The notes under the pieces: generated by a model
Seen by the model: only the letters and a program-made list of their open reading frames with translations
Told to the model about the DNA's origin: nothing
Database searches by the model: none
Made by a program: the position numbers and the translations under genes
Part shown: positions 1,381 through 25,134 of the stretch, in pieces
How positions within the stretch are numbered: the first letter of the stretch is position 1
Layout: each line of letters begins with the position of its first letter
IMG/VR virus record: IMGVR_UViG_3300035670_001164
Coordinates: 1 to 25,267 of that record
Length of the DNA: 25,267 bases
Source: a virus
Direction: 5' to 3' (one strand)

Positions 1381-1803
1381 TCAGTCAGCGTCGATTCTCA
1401 CGCTGCAACCGAAACGGCTGAGACCGTAAGACTTGGTAGCTAAAATCTGGTAGATTTGGCTGTCATCGAGCCAGACTCGCTGAGTGTCGGTGATCGCGTC
1501 CGTCACCGCTTTAATGAGGTTGTCCAAGTCTGGCTTTTTGCAGTGCCAGATTGGCCAGTTTTCCTTCAAGCTTCCGTCTCGCTTGAAATGCGCTTTAGGT
1601 CGCGGCAAGAAGAAGTCCAGCTGGACGCGAACAGGATGCGCCACAAGCGATTCTGGAGCGTTTGCGACGGCTTGCAGCCGCACCGCTTGCTTCCAAGACT
1701 CCGCGCTGTCTGGAGTGTAAACGCCAGCATGACCCCCACGCACAAACGCTTTCACTCGCGGTTGAGCTTTCGGGATACCGGCCACAAAGAAATCAATCTT
1801 CAC
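1381..1803 (-). CDS. rusA: RusA-family Holliday junction resolvase
   Basis: 140 aa from a GTG at 1803 that overlaps the SSB-like gene stop as GTGA; a longer in-frame extension lies inside that gene and is rejected. RusA enzymes are dimeric, metal-dependent endonucleases that cut four-way junctions during phage replication and recombination. Visible signatures are VAGIPKAQPRVKAF at 7-20, KKPDLDNLIKAVTDAI at 89-104 and VWLDDSQI at 110-117. The aspartates D92, D94 and D113/D114 match the acidic metal-binding set of the family. The length is normal. It closes the recombination cluster and probably resolves junctions formed by the Bet/exonuclease pair. Confidence 0.9.
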   Translation of the reverse strand: MKIDFFVAGIPKAQPRVKAFVRGGHAGVYTPDSAESWKQAVRLQAVANAPESLVAHPVRVQLDFFLPRPKAHFKRDGSLKENWPIWHCKKPDLDNLIKAVTDAITDTQRVWLDDSQIYQILATKSYGLSRFGCSVRIDAD

Positions 1804-2120
1804 GGTGAATGGGTAATCTCCTGAATCCGTCCGGTGACTCGCGGATTTGCGTACCACCAGCCGGTTGACGATTTGTCTGCAACCGCATCGCAATCCCCAT
1901 CGAACATGATATGCGTTCCAGCAATCAACTGGTCCGCGATCTCAATGTCAGCCGCATCGAACGACCGGAACTGCACTCGCTGTGCGTAAGGTTTCCCATT
2001 CGCCAGCTTGCGGTTCTCGAACTCAATCACTGCGAGCAGGAACGATTTGCCCTCAGCGGTCTGGTGGACCTCAGCGTCAGCGTAAAGACGGCCAAACCCA
2101 CGCGCCCATAAATGTCTCAT
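1800..2120 (-). CDS. ssb: SSB-like single-stranded DNA-binding protein
   Basis: 106 aa; the ATG overlaps the upstream stop as ATGA. The sequence reads as one OB-fold: GFGRLYADAEVHQTAEGKSF near the N-terminus, then AVIEFENR, AQRVQFRSF, an A-D-Q-L-x-x-G-T-H-I-M-F-D-G-D segment and W-Y-A-N-P-R-V-T-G-R-I at the end. This follows the strand order of bacterial and phage SSB proteins (G-R-L ... F-x-V-A-x, ... L-x-x-G-x-x-V-x-V-x-G). It is shorter than E. coli SSB and lacks the acidic DDDIPF-type tail that recruits host proteins. It probably protects single strands used by the Bet annealase next door. Confidence 0.75.
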   Translation of the reverse strand: MRHLWARGFGRLYADAEVHQTAEGKSFLLAVIEFENRKLANGKPYAQRVQFRSFDAADIEIADQLIAGTHIMFDGDCDAVADKSSTGWWYANPRVTGRIQEITHSP

Positions 2121-2551
2121 CGAGTGTATCCCTCCAGTCGAGCCGGTGAGTAAGACGGACTCTTCACGATCTTGCCATCATTGCGACGGACAATGTGCCG
2201 GTTTTCTCCAACTCGATGAGAGCGGGAGTCAGCCGGAATGCAGTCGATCTCGTCGTCAGACCAGCATTTGCTCATGTTGGATCGGTGGATCTCGCAGAAT
2301 GCAGCGTCCACTTGATGCGGACTAAATCCCGCAGCCAGCGCGGCTCCATAGACGACGTACAAGAGGTCGCCAACTGCGTCGAGATACTCTTTCGCGTTGG
2401 TCGCTTCGGAGAGTTCTTGAGCCTCTTCGTCAATCAGCCGATACCGAAGGTTTTGAGTCACCGGATCTGGCATGATTGGAGTGGATGGAACGTACTGCTG
2501 GAAGGTCCGCATGAACTCGCGGACAAGCTCCATTGGATGAGTTTGATTCAT
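2117..2551 (-). CDS. MazG/HisE-like nucleotide pyrophosphohydrolase
   Basis: 144 aa with ATGA overlaps on both sides. The all-alpha NTP-pyrophosphatase pattern is visible: a helix ending in RLIDEEAQELSEA at 38-50 (E42, E43 and E46), then EYLDAVGDLLYVVYGAALA at 55-73 with D58 and D62, and F-C-E-I-H-R-S-N-M-S-K at 85-95. These enzymes hydrolyse (d)NTPs or related nucleotides to the monophosphate and pyrophosphate, using Mg2+ held by the E-x-x-E and D residues. Phages often carry such genes, perhaps to adjust nucleotide pools or lower alarmone signals. The exact substrate cannot be read. It is coupled to the exonuclease and SSB genes. Confidence 0.85.
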   Translation of the reverse strand: MNQTHPMELVREFMRTFQQYVPSTPIMPDPVTQNLRYRLIDEEAQELSEATNAKEYLDAVGDLLYVVYGAALAAGFSPHQVDAAFCEIHRSNMSKCWSDDEIDCIPADSRSHRVGENRHIVRRNDGKIVKSPSYSPARLEGYTR

Positions 2552-3651
2552 TTGATCTTGGTTAGCGTTGGTTGACCGGCTTTGGATTCAGTGCATCCGT
2601 CGAGCAGTGCAGCCAGCTTAGCTTCCAGCTCGCGTCCTTTGGTTCCAGTCGCAGTCTTCACCGCATCTTTGAGCTTTGTTTTGTTGATACTGATCGCAGG
2701 AGTCAGTTGCTCGTAAGTTCCCAACTCCAAGAACCGAGAAGCGACCATTTCAGAGTTCGTAATGGACTCGCGCACCGCACCGTCTTTAAGCGTCCAACCT
2801 TCGATTGCGTCTCCTTCACTCAATCTCCGTCGAGCTTCTGACCGGCAAGCTTCAATCACTGCTTCGGCTTGTGCTGCACGATCAAGAAACGCTGCGAGCG
2901 TTGAGTTGGTGAGCGTTGCCGCAATCGCGTCAGGAGTGATGCCAGCAGGAGCGTCAGCGAGCGGAGGAGCGACTGCCAACTCTCGCGCTTCTTTGCAGTA
3001 CGGTTTTCCTTTGCAGTACTTGCAAGCGGCTTCAAACGGAGTGCGCGGTTGACCAACCTTCTGAATCTCCTTCATCAGTCCGTTGGATTCGAGAATCGCG
3101 GAATGAATGTCTGAGGACTCGTAAACCGCTACGCTCGGAGGTCCAGCAAGCGGCTGGATTATTGCGACGGTAATCCGATCAAGCGTGAATCCCCAAGACT
3201 CATCAAGCAGCGCGACCAAGCACCGCAACTGGAGATTCTCCGCAGCATTCTCGACCGATCCCCTGCCGCTCTTGTAGTCGATAATGAGACCGTAGAGCAT
3301 CCCATTGTCGCTCACAGTGTAGATAACATCCGGCTTTCCACTCCAGAGCTTATTGCCGTCTTTGTCCAGCGACCACAGACGTTTCTCGCGGAAGCAGTTG
3401 GCCTCAGCGTCACCAAAGGTTGCTTTGACCAATTCCGCTTCCTGCTCTCTGCAACGATCAATGATCCACGTTTCATCAGTGGTGAGGTCGTTAACCGTTT
3501 CAAGTGCTAGAGCAGCATGGATGCGGTTCCCAATCGCTGCGTCGGTGGTGGACTCGACCTCAGCAACTTGACGTTCAAGATCAAAGCTCCCAAGACAAGC
3601 AGCGTACCGGCTCGCTGCGGACGCTGACGGTAGGTTTCGACGCTCATCCAT
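2548..3651 (-). CDS. PD-(D/E)XK exonuclease (RecB/Cas4-like, DUF2800 type)
   Basis: 367 aa. The N-terminus reads LPSASAASRYAACLGS, as in the DUF2800/PDDEXK_1 phage nucleases. The nuclease core is visible: GNRIHAAL (H45), WSGKPDVIY (D108), IIDYKSGRG (D125 and K127) and ENLQLRCLVALL (Q141). Cysteines C19, C210, C213 and C219 follow an N-terminal Cys plus C-x2-C-x5-C layout like the iron-sulphur clamp of AddB and Cas4 nucleases. It would degrade a strand of duplex ends to make single-stranded DNA for the Bet annealase encoded just upstream (8-bp gene overlap). The C-terminal 140 residues are Ala-rich and may help oligomerisation. The family name rests on motifs only. Confidence 0.85.
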   Translation of the reverse strand: MDERRNLPSASAASRYAACLGSFDLERQVAEVESTTDAAIGNRIHAALALETVNDLTTDETWIIDRCREQEAELVKATFGDAEANCFREKRLWSLDKDGNKLWSGKPDVIYTVSDNGMLYGLIIDYKSGRGSVENAAENLQLRCLVALLDESWGFTLDRITVAIIQPLAGPPSVAVYESSDIHSAILESNGLMKEIQKVGQPRTPFEAACKYCKGKPYCKEARELAVAPPLADAPAGITPDAIAATLTNSTLAAFLDRAAQAEAVIEACRSEARRRLSEGDAIEGWTLKDGAVRESITNSEMVASRFLELGTYEQLTPAISINKTKLKDAVKTATGTKGRELEAKLAALLDGCTESKAGQPTLTKIK

Positions 3652-4327
3652 TGGAAACCTCCGGTTGAATGGACTCGGTGGTGTTTACGGTAGCTGTCGG
3701 AACCGGATTGTTTTCCGGCAAGAACTCGTGCGGTTGCAGCTCCACTTTCGGCTCTAGCTTTGAGCGGAAAATCGGACGGCTCGGAGTGACGTTGACCTGC
3801 ACTTGCGGCGGGACCGCCTCCTCTTCGTCCACGATTCCGCTGAACCCAAACGCTACACGAGCGCACTGAATCAACGCTTTGTGTCGCAGCATCCGTCGCG
3901 GATTGACCTTCCACGGTTCCGTTGCGCGGTAGCACTCGCTGAAGTACTCAGTGACCTCAACCGGATGCGAACGATCCTTATGGTGGATCGTAGCAGTCAC
4001 GCTGAACGGTTTGCCGTCTTTGTCTTCGGTAGTGAACTGGATGCCGTTGAACTGCGGATGCGAGTTCATCATCTTAATCCATCCATCGACGGAGACGACC
4101 GGCTGGATGCCACCGTTGCGAGCAGGGAATGCGTAGATTTCTCGCGTAAACGGGTTGAGTCCGTACTGGTTAGCGGTGACGACGAACGAGAGCAGTTCTT
4201 CGTTGGTCGCTTTGGGCATCAGAGTTGCCTTCAGCGTCTCCAGCAGCTTTGCCGGTTCAACGCTGAATCGACTCGCCATTACTGCGAGCGCGGACTGCTT
4301 TTGCTGAGGTATTAGTTCGTTTTTCAT
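3644..4327 (-). CDS. bet: Bet/RecT-family single-strand annealing protein
   Basis: 227 aa from the ATG at 4327; an upstream in-frame start (4402) would add 25 residues without family resemblance. The core is typical of lambda Bet-like proteins: ANQYGLNPFTREIYAFP at 52-68, VVSVDGWIKMMNSHPQFNG at 77-95, a VTEYFSECYR segment and W-K-x-x-P-R-R-M-L-R-H-K-A-L-I-Q-C-A-R-V-A-F near 140-162. It coats single-stranded DNA and anneals complementary strands in phage recombination. The C-terminal 60 residues are Pro/Val-rich and probably disordered. It pairs with the following exonuclease as a two-component recombinase. Confidence 0.92.
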   Translation of the reverse strand: MKNELIPQQKQSALAVMASRFSVEPAKLLETLKATLMPKATNEELLSFVVTANQYGLNPFTREIYAFPARNGGIQPVVSVDGWIKMMNSHPQFNGIQFTTEDKDGKPFSVTATIHHKDRSHPVEVTEYFSECYRATEPWKVNPRRMLRHKALIQCARVAFGFSGIVDEEEAVPPQVQVNVTPSRPIFRSKLEPKVELQPHEFLPENNPVPTATVNTTESIQPEVSNG

Positions 4328-4466
4328 TGGTCTTCTTTGGTCTTCCACCAAGCTTGCCGTTTTGGCGAGCAGCAGCGGATTTTGCCGGTGATTTGGCAGC
4401 ACCCAACTCCCCCGCGATTTGGCGGAGGCTTACAGCAAATATGCAGTTGCAGTGGGGACATTTCAT
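4257..4466 (-). CDS. Small CxxC protein with GKLGGRPKK motif
   Basis: 69 aa. It starts MKCPHCNCIF, a zinc-ribbon-like knuckle (C3, C6, C8), followed by IAGELGAAKSPAKSAAA and NGKLGGRPKK. The A-A-x-x-N-G-K-L-G-G-R-P-K-K pattern is frequent in small phage and plasmid proteins and makes this frame more credible than the alternative frame over the same DNA. The last 71 bp overlap the bet gene, which is a long overlap for this genome; the region past GGRPKKT may be real or only reading through. Only one pair of metal-binding Cys is seen, so zinc binding is uncertain. It is the first gene after the tail module. Confidence 0.55.
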   Translation of the reverse strand: MKCPHCNCIFAVSLRQIAGELGAAKSPAKSAAARQNGKLGGRPKKTNEKRTNTSAKAVRARSNGESIQR

Positions 4467-20935: not shown

Positions 20936-22786
20936 TCAAGAGGCAGAACTTTCCGCTGTGCTAGATCTCAAGTCATTCCAAAGCATCACCATTGCTAACT
21001 GCATGATCTCGCAGTCATGCAAATGATCCGGCCAACGAGTGTTTCGCTTGAACCACAAGTGCTTGATTCGACCGGAACGGTTAGCTGTTGGCTTTAAAAC
21101 GTGGGAATCCAAGTGCTTCCAGTATGTATCAGAATCAGCTGCAAATGCTCCTTCAGCCTCAAGCGGTGCAGGAAGACTGCAAACGGTCCATTGATTAGCT
21201 TCCGATCCTTTACGGAGCCGCTGGAGAACGTCGCGCATATGCTCAGTGTCAAATACCAAGAGCGGCTGTACAACATCCGTCCGCATAGATGTTGAGGTTG
21301 TTATTCCAAATGGATGGATTGAGCCAGTCTTAGAAGTGAACCGCGCACCAGTCTCTCGACCTTTCATCGGCAACCAACCGATCAACATCGGCTTCCGAAG
21401 ACCTCCCTCCGGTGGATAGCGGAGACCGCAGGGATAGGTTATCGGAGAGTTGCTGAGTTGGGAAAACTCCGCACAAGCATCGTACACCGCTTGAGTGTTG
21501 AAACCGGAATCAACACCAACATCCATGTCATGCACTTTATAATGCAGTTGGATGCGTCGGAGAGCGGCAAAGTCATCAGCGTGACCAGCCGCAACCAGTC
21601 TTGAGTTTCCGCCGGACCACTCGCGGCAGACCCACCAGAGAAACGGAGCAGCAGCTTGAACGTCTGCGGTGAGGTAGCGTCTGGCTTCCGGCATCTCAGC
21701 ATCTGAGACGACCTCCACTCGCTCCTGTTGGGTCTCTTGGTTTTCCCACGGTTCCGCGAGCATACCGTTGATAAATCCCTGCAATCCCATCATCGAGCTT
21801 TTGGCTTCCAAGAATGCGACCGCGAGATTTCCCCAAGTGCATTTGCGATCCGGTGAGTAGAGAGACGATAGATGGTAAGAGCGGACACTCGGGAGGCTCG
21901 CTTTGTTCTCTGGAACCCACTTCCCATGACGCAGCGCGGCAACCTTCTGGCTGTCGGTAATCTTTCCCTGACACAATTGGCAAACGTAATGAGCGGTGGT
22001 CCGTATTTGCTGCCAATCCGGTCTTCCTTCTTCAGTCTTCGCGTTGTCCCAAGTCACTTGTCGCCACTCCAGCTTGATCGGCTCTTTGCAGTGCGGACAC
22101 GGGATGTAATACCGCCGTTGGTCTCCTCTCAAATACCGCTGCCAGATTCGTCCCTCGGAGGTCGTCGGAGTGCTGGTGAAGAACGCTTTGCTGCTGGAGA
22201 ACGCTTTGAGTCGTTGCTCAGCAAGATCCAGAGCGTCGGCTTCTTTTGCGGTTGCTTCGGCAAACTTGTCCACTTCATCCCCAACCAGAATGCGGACGGG
22301 TCGAGACGCTAGATTCGCTGGTGAGTTGCTACCAACGAAGGTCAGAGTGCAGCGATCAAACTGCTGCTCTAGATTTGTAATCTGGTCTTTGTCAGTTGGG
22401 AACCGCGCAACCATTGCCGGTGAGTCTTCCAGCATTGGCAACCAGCGGGATTTGCTGAAGCTGCGAGCCAGATTCTCTGAAGGCATCAACCACAGCGCGG
22501 GACTCGGCTCAACGTCAATCGACCAAGCCAGACCGGCCATCAGAGTGGTAGTCTTACTGGTTTGACTTCCCCAACAGAGCGTGACCTCAGAGACTGCCGG
22601 ATCTTTCCAACACTCAAGCGGCTCTCTGCAATATGGTCTGACTGCCGTGGAGAATGGTCCGGGGTGTTCAGTCTGACGCTGACTTAGCGATAGATTGGCT
22701 TCAGCCCACTCAACCACAGACTGCCGTGGAGTTGGTCGCCAGAGTTGCCGTCGGAACTCCAAGATCTCGCGCTCTAGATCGGTCAT
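20936..22786 (-). CDS. Terminase large subunit, GpA family
   Basis: 616 aa, similar to lambda gpA in length and layout. The ATPase has a Walker A-like WGSQTSKTTT (72-81), Walker B ILVGDEVDKF (166-175) and an FFTSTPTT coupling motif (202-209). A zinc-finger-like insert shows C230-x2-C233 and C269-x2-C272. The nuclease part has LTADVQ (D375), DVGVDSGFNTQAVYDAC (422-438) and a late HLHDCEIMQLA, the acidic metal-binding set that cuts concatemers. It would act with the small subunit and the portal. The stop of the PD-(D/E)XK-like gene shares one base with the ATG. The methylase and nuclease-like gene separate it from its small subunit. Confidence 0.95.
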   Translation of the reverse strand: MTDLEREILEFRRQLWRPTPRQSVVEWAEANLSLSQRQTEHPGPFSTAVRPYCREPLECWKDPAVSEVTLCWGSQTSKTTTLMAGLAWSIDVEPSPALWLMPSENLARSFSKSRWLPMLEDSPAMVARFPTDKDQITNLEQQFDRCTLTFVGSNSPANLASRPVRILVGDEVDKFAEATAKEADALDLAEQRLKAFSSSKAFFTSTPTTSEGRIWQRYLRGDQRRYYIPCPHCKEPIKLEWRQVTWDNAKTEEGRPDWQQIRTTAHYVCQLCQGKITDSQKVAALRHGKWVPENKASLPSVRSYHLSSLYSPDRKCTWGNLAVAFLEAKSSMMGLQGFINGMLAEPWENQETQQERVEVVSDAEMPEARRYLTADVQAAAPFLWWVCREWSGGNSRLVAAGHADDFAALRRIQLHYKVHDMDVGVDSGFNTQAVYDACAEFSQLSNSPITYPCGLRYPPEGGLRKPMLIGWLPMKGRETGARFTSKTGSIHPFGITTSTSMRTDVVQPLLVFDTEHMRDVLQRLRKGSEANQWTVCSLPAPLEAEGAFAADSDTYWKHLDSHVLKPTANRSGRIKHLWFKRNTRWPDHLHDCEIMQLAMVMLWNDLRSSTAESSAS

Positions 22787-23289
22787 CAGAAAAGCTCCTC
22801 AATAATCTGACCGCTCTTGATCTGGTAGCGAGCGGCTCCAGTCATATCAATCAGAGCCACTCTTTCACTGCGTCCGTTAACCGTTTTGTCGGTTGCTTGA
22901 TGGTTAGCCGCCCATGTTGCATTGCGGTTGAAGATTTCAACCATCATAACCAAGTCATCGTCGAACAAGTGCAGTACTCCAAAGAACGGAATGCGAAGCT
23001 CTTTGGTTATCAGCAAAGCCGCTTGAAGCTTTGACCATGAAATCATCCATCGGTTGCCGTAAGTGGTCTGGAGCTTGGTGAGACCGTAATTCCGAGTTTT
23101 GACCTCATAGCTTCCGACAAGAATGCCTCTGGCTGGATCGTGTATAAAACCATCAATGCGGGATGGCTCATCGTTGGAGATTCCGAGAAACTCGAAGCCG
23201 GTTTGACGCTCGATAGCTTTGAGCGCGATTCTGTTTTGCCGGAGTGCTTCGATACCGGCTGGCTTTTGGCAGTTTAACACTTCATTCAT
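22786..23289 (-). CDS. Small PD-(D/E)XK nuclease-like protein
   Basis: 167 aa; the ATG overlaps the methylase stop by 8 bp. The N-terminal helix (GIEALRQNRIALKAIERQTG) is followed by RIDGFIHDP (D46) and SYEVKTRNYG (E62, K64), which read as the D...E-x-K core of PD-(D/E)XK enzymes. A strand-helix-strand follows (WMISWSKLQAALLITKELRI, PFFGVLHLFDDDLVMMVEIF). The size and core fit restriction-type or junction endonucleases. Next to a methyltransferase it could be a restriction partner or a nuclease whose action is restrained by methylation, but it may instead serve in packaging or recombination. The fold is inferred from motifs only. Confidence 0.7.
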   Translation of the reverse strand: MNEVLNCQKPAGIEALRQNRIALKAIERQTGFEFLGISNDEPSRIDGFIHDPARGILVGSYEVKTRNYGLTKLQTTYGNRWMISWSKLQAALLITKELRIPFFGVLHLFDDDLVMMVEIFNRNATWAANHQATDKTVNGRSERVALIDMTGAARYQIKSGQIIEELF

Positions 23290-24490
23290 CTGAGTTGTGT
23301 TTTTGAAGTTGAGCTTTTTTTCCGGTGAAGTCTTCCCAACGTTTAACGATAACGTCGCAGTATTTCGGGTCCAATTCCATCAACCGAGCTTTGCGTCCGG
23401 TCTTTTCGCAAGCGATTGCTGTGGTTCCAGACCCTCCAAAAAGATCCAAGACAACATCCGATGGTTTGCTGCTGTTTTTAATTTGGTATTCGAACAACTC
23501 AACCGGCTTCATGGTTGGATGCTCGCCGTTTCTGCTTGGCTTGTTGAAATTCAAGACGGTTGTTTGCGTCCTGTCAGAACCCCAGAAATGCGCAGCGCCA
23601 TCTTTCCACCCATACAGACATGGTTCGTGTTTCCAATGGTAGTCTTGCCTCCCTAAAACCAATGTGTTTTTGTTCCAGATGAGGCACTGGCGAATCTTCC
23701 ATCCGACTTCAAACGCTGCCTTTCGAAAGTTAAGACCTTCAGAATCTGCGTGCCAGATGTAGAACACAGCACCTTCTTTCATCACCGTATCAGCCGTCGA
23801 GTAGATGTCTCGCAGGAACTGAGCAAACGAATCGTTGTCCATCGAGTCGTTTTGAATGGTCAAAGCATCCTCAGTTTTGCCCTCGTAAGCCACATTGTAT
23901 GGAGGATCTGTAAGCAGCAGGTTTGCATGTTCTCCTGCCATCAGACGATTTACAGATTCAATGCTTGTGGAATCTTCACCCATAAGCCGGTGATTCCCAA
24001 GAATCCAGATGTCTCCGAGCTTGGTTATTGGCTCAACTGGAGCCTCTGGCACTTCATCTGGATCTGTTTCTCCTTCGACTGTTTCTACCGTCAGCAAAGC
24101 GTTCAGTTCTTCGTCGGAGAATCCGGTTAGATCCGTATTGAAGCCGTCTTCCTGTAGAGTCAACAACTCGGCTTTAAGCATTTCATCGTCCCAACCTGCA
24201 TTGAGAGCGATCTTGTTGTCTGCGATGACGTAAGCTCGAATCTGCGATGGAGTCAGGTGACCGAGCCGCAAGCATGGCACTTCATCAAGTCCGAGCTTCT
24301 TTGCAGCCATGACGCGACCATGACCGGCAATGATTGTTCCGTTAGCGTCAATCAGGACTGGATTGGTGAATCCAAACTCTCGGATGGAAGCTGCGATTTG
24401 CGCCACTTGCTCATCGGAATGAGTCCGAGAGTTTCGAGCGTACGGGATGAGGCTGGAGACCAGCAGGTGTTCTATTTGAATCATTTCCAT
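23282..24490 (-). CDS. ParB-domain DNA methyltransferase (N4/N6 type)
   Basis: 402 aa. Residues 1-95 form a ParB/Srx-like N-terminal domain: NSRTHSDEQVAQIAASIREF, and TIIAGHGRVMAAKKLG at 52-67 with the family's G-H-x-R. Residues 155-395 form the methylase: LLLTDPPYNV at 191-200 (catalytic DPPY), HPTMKPVEL at 324-332, DLFGGSGTTAIACEKTGRK at 349-367 (SAM site) and ELDPKYCDV at 372-380. The order DPPY before FxGxG marks a class beta N4-cytosine or N6-adenine enzyme. It would modify phage or host DNA, perhaps against restriction. The ATG overlaps the small terminase end; a second ATG two codons later is possible. Confidence 0.93.
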   Translation of the reverse strand: MEMIQIEHLLVSSLIPYARNSRTHSDEQVAQIAASIREFGFTNPVLIDANGTIIAGHGRVMAAKKLGLDEVPCLRLGHLTPSQIRAYVIADNKIALNAGWDDEMLKAELLTLQEDGFNTDLTGFSDEELNALLTVETVEGETDPDEVPEAPVEPITKLGDIWILGNHRLMGEDSTSIESVNRLMAGEHANLLLTDPPYNVAYEGKTEDALTIQNDSMDNDSFAQFLRDIYSTADTVMKEGAVFYIWHADSEGLNFRKAAFEVGWKIRQCLIWNKNTLVLGRQDYHWKHEPCLYGWKDGAAHFWGSDRTQTTVLNFNKPSRNGEHPTMKPVELFEYQIKNSSKPSDVVLDLFGGSGTTAIACEKTGRKARLMELDPKYCDVIVKRWEDFTGKKAQLQKHNSDE

Positions 24491-25134
24491 GGATCAGTTG
24501 AATGCAGAGTTTTGAGACACACTTCTTGAACCCAACGCTCAAGCTCGCGCTCGGCGTGTTCTGGGTCATGCGGAGCAATGCGACCGGCAAGCTGCTTGGG
24601 CATCGCTTTGAGAAGGCTCGCCACCGCTCCATCGTGATCTTGCATGACTCGTTTTACCCAAGAGCCGGAGACTAAAGTCTTCTCCTTTTCGGCAAGCGCG
24701 ATTACATCCTGACGAGCGTTCATCAGGTTCTTTGCAGCGACAGCGTGGACACCAACCATTCTGCCAGCGTCCATTGTCTTGTTTCTGAGAGCTTGAACGG
24801 CAAGACCATAGGACGCTCGCTCAATCTGCTTCTGCCGCTCGTAGGCTCCAGCAGGAGTGTCAGACGCTACAATAGACTGATTGATCGTTGCTGCGGCTTC
24901 TGGCGGTCTGTGGGGACCATCTGGAATGGACGCTGCCGCTTCATTGAAGACAGATTCTTGCTGTTGGATCGCAGCCAGCTTCTGAGCGTTACTTGGTCTA
25001 CCACCAATGCCTTTGCGAGATCCACGCCAAGCGTCGGCTTCTTCTGGTGAGGTCAACGGCATTCCATTAGCCACAAGCTGTGAGACTCGACCTTTGGATA
25101 AACCGCTGTGCTTGCAGTATTCAGTCTGAGTCAT
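24481..25134 (-). CDS. Terminase small subunit, Nu1-like
   Basis: 217 aa; the ATG overlaps the previous stop as ATGA. An N-terminal winged-helix-like DNA-binding part is seen (TQTEYCKHSGLSKGRVSQLV, then ANGMPLTSPEEADAWR), as in lambda Nu1 and similar phage small terminases in which a short HTH is followed by a residue set ending in W. A basic linker (SRKGIGGRPSNAQKLAA) and a long helical C-terminus (YERQKQIERASYGLAVQAL through AERELERWVQEVCLKTL) follow and may oligomerise and bind the large subunit. It would recognise the packaging site. It is longer than Nu1 (181 aa). The large subunit lies two genes downstream. Confidence 0.8.
   Translation of the reverse strand: MTQTEYCKHSGLSKGRVSQLVANGMPLTSPEEADAWRGSRKGIGGRPSNAQKLAAIQQQESVFNEAAASIPDGPHRPPEAAATINQSIVASDTPAGAYERQKQIERASYGLAVQALRNKTMDAGRMVGVHAVAAKNLMNARQDVIALAEKEKTLVSGSWVKRVMQDHDGAVASLLKAMPKQLAGRIAPHDPEHAERELERWVQEVCLKTLHSTDPWK

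Follow-up and report, generated by a model that had tools for sequence, protein, structure and literature searches.

The small PD-(D/E)XK gene that lies between the terminase subunit genes of this virus, here called NUC, is a conserved and nearly constant member of the packaging operon, and sequence comparisons indicate that it and the adjacent DNA methyltransferase gene, MT, are functionally independent neighbours and not a restriction-modification pair. The explanation that we favour, with moderate confidence, is that NUC is an accessory PD-(D/E)XK endonuclease of cos-phage packaging, and MT an independent, exchangeable anti-restriction gene. Gene order, the independence of the two genes, the conservation of NUC and cassette exchange by recombination are shown by the comparisons; that NUC cuts DNA, on which substrate it would do so, and the anti-restriction role of MT are inferred. 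The window, meaning the whole stretch of DNA analysed, comprises 25,267 bp and is a linear virus record of IMG/VR, and the close relatives with which it was compared are metagenomic contigs throughout.

Four genes form a single overlapping operon on the minus strand. TerS, the terminase small subunit (24481-25134, 217 aa), matches phrog_57 (E=1.5e-9). MT (23282-24490, 402 aa) is a ParB-domain N6/N4 DNA methyltransferase with ParB_N and N6_N4_Mtase domains and a match to phrog_498 (E=1.8e-178). NUC (22786-23289, 167 aa) is a small PD-(D/E)XK protein of Hjc-type fold, recognized by its invariant residues and predicted structure. TerL (20936-22786, 616 aa) is a gpA-type large terminase in which Pfam detects both the ATPase region (GpA_ATPase, E=2e-65) and the nuclease region (GpA_nuclease). 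The sequence-only reading of this DNA had placed a ParB-methyltransferase and a PD-(D/E)XK gene between the terminase subunits, and the open reading frames, Pfam, PHROG and the predicted fold agree with it. The tight overlaps that it described are also present (10 nt for TerS/MT, 8 nt for MT/NUC and 1 nt for NUC/TerL), and they make the proposed co-translation with the packaging genes plausible as coupled translation.

NUC matches no database family above threshold in Pfam or PHROGs. Its only Pfam match is sub-threshold (PDDEXK_14, E=0.19), and no Hjc or other resolvase model matched. Nothing significant was returned by searches of 50,697 phage records, PDB sequences, PADLOC, PHROGs, or bacterial and archaeal genomes. 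The residues previously proposed as catalytic, D46 (23152-23154), E62 (23104-23106) and K64 (23098-23100), all on the minus strand, are invariant across 78 distinct NUC sequences with identities down to 58%, so that none of these relatives carries a mutated equivalent; E27, K87 and Q89 are likewise invariant in this set. An AlphaFold2 model built from 31 sequences (pLDDT 83.5, pTM 0.79) has its best structural match in the archaeal Holliday junction resolvase Hjc (2wcw; Z 10.3, rmsd 2.7, 109 residues aligned), equalled by the SPARDA nuclease 9qcc (Z 10.3), whereas restriction enzymes match less well (DpnI, Z 6.4; PvuII, Z 5.5). NUC thus combines the D...(D/E)xK motif of the PD-(D/E)XK superfamily with its core fold in the predicted structure. 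With archaeal Hjc it shares the fold over residues 13-156 and the D-ExK catalytic set, but identity is 13%, junction cleavage by NUC is putative, and the phage that encodes NUC also encodes RusA. The model identifies NUC as a nuclease-fold protein, and a common fold does not prove function.

The position of NUC is strict. Relatives are encoded in at least 171 IMG/VR stretches, and NUC stands directly before TerL in 289 of 289 loci, which are all the examined loci with room for it; its placement is therefore not due to chance. Of 129 related loci that have both terminase genes, a set to which some contigs contribute more than one locus, 128 have NUC between TerS and TerL. Selection on NUC resembles that on the packaging genes: dN/dS, taken as the median of pairwise Nei-Gojobori values for pairs with 0.05<dS<1, was 0.039 for NUC, 0.029 for TerS, 0.032 for TerL and 0.046 for the portal gene, and reached 0.335 for MT, a value probably inflated by swapped segments. 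NUC therefore behaves as a core packaging gene, and MT as an exchangeable accessory. The distances of NUC and TerL are correlated (0.89), which is partly explained by gene adjacency, and co-variation of NUC with TerS beyond linkage is weak (partial r 0.34).

A direct TerS-TerL junction was found by DNA pattern in at least 54 contigs, a lower bound comprising 53 contigs of a sister clade, with TerL about 76% identical and no NUC, and one contig (L086) that belongs to the NUC-carrying clade and has a 98% identical TerL, yet also lacks NUC. The start contexts correspond: TerL of the sister clade begins MEIL-TDLQ and NUC begins MEIL-NCQ, and the MT and QueC cassettes use the same context, which suggests that cargo was inserted at one translationally coupled point. 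By this comparison NUC itself is an insertion between TerS and TerL; gain in one clade and loss in the other both fit. NUC was not detected in ten near-complete sister genomes, in a search run without a positive control alongside. At the clade level, NUC co-occurs with a recombination module (1381-4402, minus strand) in which Pfam identifies RecT (3644-4402), a PD-(D/E)XK exonuclease-like protein (2548-3651), an SSB-like protein (1800-2120) and the RusA resolvase (1381-1893). A gene of the phosphoribosyl-ATP pyrophosphohydrolase (PRA-PH) family also lies inside this module (2117-2551, Pfam). RecT is present in 14 of 14 genomes with NUC and RusA in all nine such genomes tested; each is absent from all ten genomes without NUC. 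This association is clade-level and equivalent to one evolutionary event. Two sister-clade genomes, G028 and G033 (loci L368/L369 and L372/L373), encode in their replication region a 198-aa PD-(D/E)XK-like protein, which is possibly their resolvase and has no sequence similarity to NUC.

The phages appear to be of the cos type. Contigs have GGTGATCGCGCGGG as their very first letters, usually some 270 bp ahead of TerS (86 of 159 loci), and contig ends carry the same 14-mer, which runs into Illumina adapter sequence in G011 and G013. The common termini and the adapter read-through look like physical cos ends.

A role for NUC in packaging or concatemer processing is suggested by analogy with HNH packaging nucleases and with T4 and T7, phages that need a resolvase before packaging. 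NUC would then be a clade-specific, now core, component of packaging in cos-type phages that have a gpA-like terminase. It may cut DNA structures that block packaging, such as branches or junctions arising from RecT-type recombination, or it may assist cos cleavage, in either case beside a TerL that seems to keep an intact nuclease of its own. MT, docked in the TerS-NUC junction, would methylate phage DNA and so counter host restriction. Accessory HNH nucleases of the HK97 gp74 type are known from phage packaging modules (PMC5304195, PMC9611059, PMC10448857). Like them, NUC is a small nuclease-fold gene beside terminase genes and cos, but it is a PD-(D/E)XK protein with an Hjc-type fold instead of an HNH protein, its place is between the two subunit genes of a gpA-type terminase, and its participation in cos cleavage is putative. 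A bolder version, which we put forward tentatively and hold somewhat doubtful, makes NUC a third constitutive part of gpA-type packaging machinery: an endonuclease with the Hjc fold that came in together with the RecT/RusA module and debranches concatemers or aids cos cutting, while exchangeable DNA-modification genes dock at the operon junctions. Against a packaging role, a second resolvase would be redundant where RusA is already encoded, and the sister clade and L086 indicate that this type of terminase can do without NUC.

NUC could instead be a nuclease that degrades host DNA or excludes superinfecting phages and merely rides in the late operon. Its fold is as close to the SPARDA effector nucleases as to Hjc, and distantly resembles DpnI, and late expression of the operon is likely. 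We consider this unlikely, since the strict placement of NUC and its TerL-like constraint speak against it, and since phage DNA would need protection from it, yet NUC is kept in genomes that are free of MT.

Recombination in the operon bears on another alternative, in which NUC acts as a free-standing endonuclease of the homing type, promotes the exchange of TerS and the cassette, and never belonged to packaging. The window and one relative (L019) differ by 2 mismatches in 1815 bp (23118-24932, minus strand), a tract that takes in TerS from its middle to its end, the whole of MT and about the first 57 codons of NUC, and then by about 60 mismatches in the next 250 bp. Beyond the tract edge, inside NUC, two other loci (L084 and L083) match the window instead of L019, so that the window has a chimeric NUC gene, joined from two alleles with the breakpoint within the gene. 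Because the near-identity to L019 collapses inside NUC, the cassette most likely moved by homologous recombination, and the window is, judging from these alignments, most likely a recent recombinant that gained part of TerS, MT and the 5' end of NUC as one 1.8-kb tract. In favour of homing, NUC sits at an exchange boundary; nuclease genes in such places, often near terminases, have been documented in phages, and both the packaging view and the homing view of them have been discussed (PMC10448857). The sister clade also offers an uninterrupted TerS-TerL site, and it and L086 supply homologous sites that lack NUC. Homing nevertheless seems improbable, because NUC is nearly fixed in its clade, evolves at a dN/dS of 0.04 and has its active site intact in all copies, unlike genes in a cycle of gain and degeneration; moreover, it was never found elsewhere in a genome and matches no homing family.

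A split terminase, in which NUC would provide the nuclease of the terminase or stand in for it, is suggested by the PD-(D/E)XK fold of NUC and its place directly before TerL, but this is very unlikely and was rejected, since in an alignment with lambda gpA the nuclease domain of TerL keeps its acidic positions (TADVQ, DSG and HDCE), so that NUC seems not to take its place, and since the sister clade has a 76% identical TerL without NUC. Least credible of all, with hardly any probability left to it, is that the two genes make up a type II restriction-modification system in which NUC attacks competing DNA and MT shields the phage genome: the genes are adjacent and overlapping, NUC has a nuclease fold and MT belongs to the type II-like methyltransferase models (PADLOC PDLC03229, E=2e-148), but NUC mostly occurs without MT, the same NUC is found with unrelated MT target regions, the two genes are under different selection, and NUC is unmatched in PADLOC.

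The distribution of the two genes in relatives contradicts such a pair. Of the 129 loci, 91 have no gene between TerS and NUC, 28 have MT there and 9 a different insert of 1.2 kb; after identical NUC and TerL DNA was collapsed in a larger locus set, the corresponding counts were 73, 26 and 5. By DNA pattern, at least 107 contigs have a direct TerS-NUC junction, again a lower bound. A NUC protein that is identical over 153 aa is accompanied by MT in L117 but not in L126, L131 and L197. Conversely, L117 and L148 have NUC proteins that are 100% identical over the 153-aa core and MT target regions that are only 24% identical, while the window and L019 share an identical MT and have NUC proteins of 85% identity. 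No N6/N4 methyltransferase was found anywhere in the near-complete MT-free genomes, including the 31.9-kb L197 contig, and no C5 or D12 methyltransferase in those of them that were checked for these types. In one genome with MT (G013), a C5 cytosine methyltransferase gene is also present (C1:27319-27834), well away from the packaging genes. The sequence-only reading had proposed a restriction-modification-like pair or control of packaging-site cutting by methylation, and had itself named independent carriage of the two genes in relatives as evidence against its proposal. Independent carriage is what the survey found, and neither the pairing nor methylation-controlled cutting holds up: the genes do not regularly co-occur, and identical NUC beside MTs with differing target-recognition regions, like identical MT beside NUC of 85% identity, indirectly contradicts a shared recognition site. 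Its further suggestion, protection of the phage DNA, fared better, being plausible and favoured for MT alone, though not for MT as a partner of NUC.

MT has the motif order of the beta class (IV...I), with DPPY at 195 and FGGSG at 351 in addition to ParB_N, and all 25 distinct copies keep DPPY and the FxGxG motif. Conservation is about 85-98% over residues 1-195 and 360-395; between them, residues of about 200-340 (23471-23893, minus strand) are only about 45% conserved and form the probable target-recognition region, of which eight types occur among 23 distinct MTs. From these alignments, the specificity region is rapidly swapped between conserved ends, and MT, an optional gene, would protect phage DNA from host restriction by methylating it. 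MT matches the phage ParB-domain methyltransferases of phrog_498 over its full length, and members of this family in other phages are also near terminase genes; in Faecalibacterium phage Epona, for example, an annotated methyltransferase precedes TerS. Unlike those members, MT here sits inside the TerS-NUC junction, and its conserved ends enclose an exchanged specificity region.

The alternative insert in the TerS-NUC slot encodes, in the copies read, QueC (PF06508, E=5e-45) and a TGT/DpdA-like transglycosylase, whose model matches tRNA-guanine transglycosylase over the whole chain (Z 14.2) and has DpdA 7ui4 among its Foldseek matches. A preQ0 synthase and a transglycosylase fold are thus both present in these relatives, which points to modification of the 7-deazaguanine type. 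QueC with DpdA is known from phage 7-deazaguanine DNA modification (PMC6884629), and the cassette similarly has QueC beside a TGT/DpdA-fold protein. It differs from the known systems in that its transglycosylase is short (about 200 aa) and matches PHROG queuine-transferase models marginally, that it docks in the terminase operon, and that its chemistry is predicted. A second slot lies between cos and TerS. In L056, L058, L072, L073, L086 and L195 (about 270-1090 of these loci) it carries a phosphosulfate-reductase-like gene of phrog_424 that matches SspD of phosphorothioation (E=1.6e-16), and in L102, L138, L182 and L229 it carries QueC and a second type of transglycosylase, 29% identical; L229 belongs to the NUC-less sister clade.

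If NUC acts in packaging as we favour, gpA-class terminases would gain a packaging-associated nuclease whose fold is unlike that of the HNH enzymes in HK97-like phages, and the clearing of branched recombination products before packaging would become directly testable. The docking slot shows phages exchanging whole predicted DNA-modification chemistries (methylation, 7-deazaguanine and possibly sulfur-related) at one translationally coupled point, and its variants offer a natural series for studies of anti-restriction.
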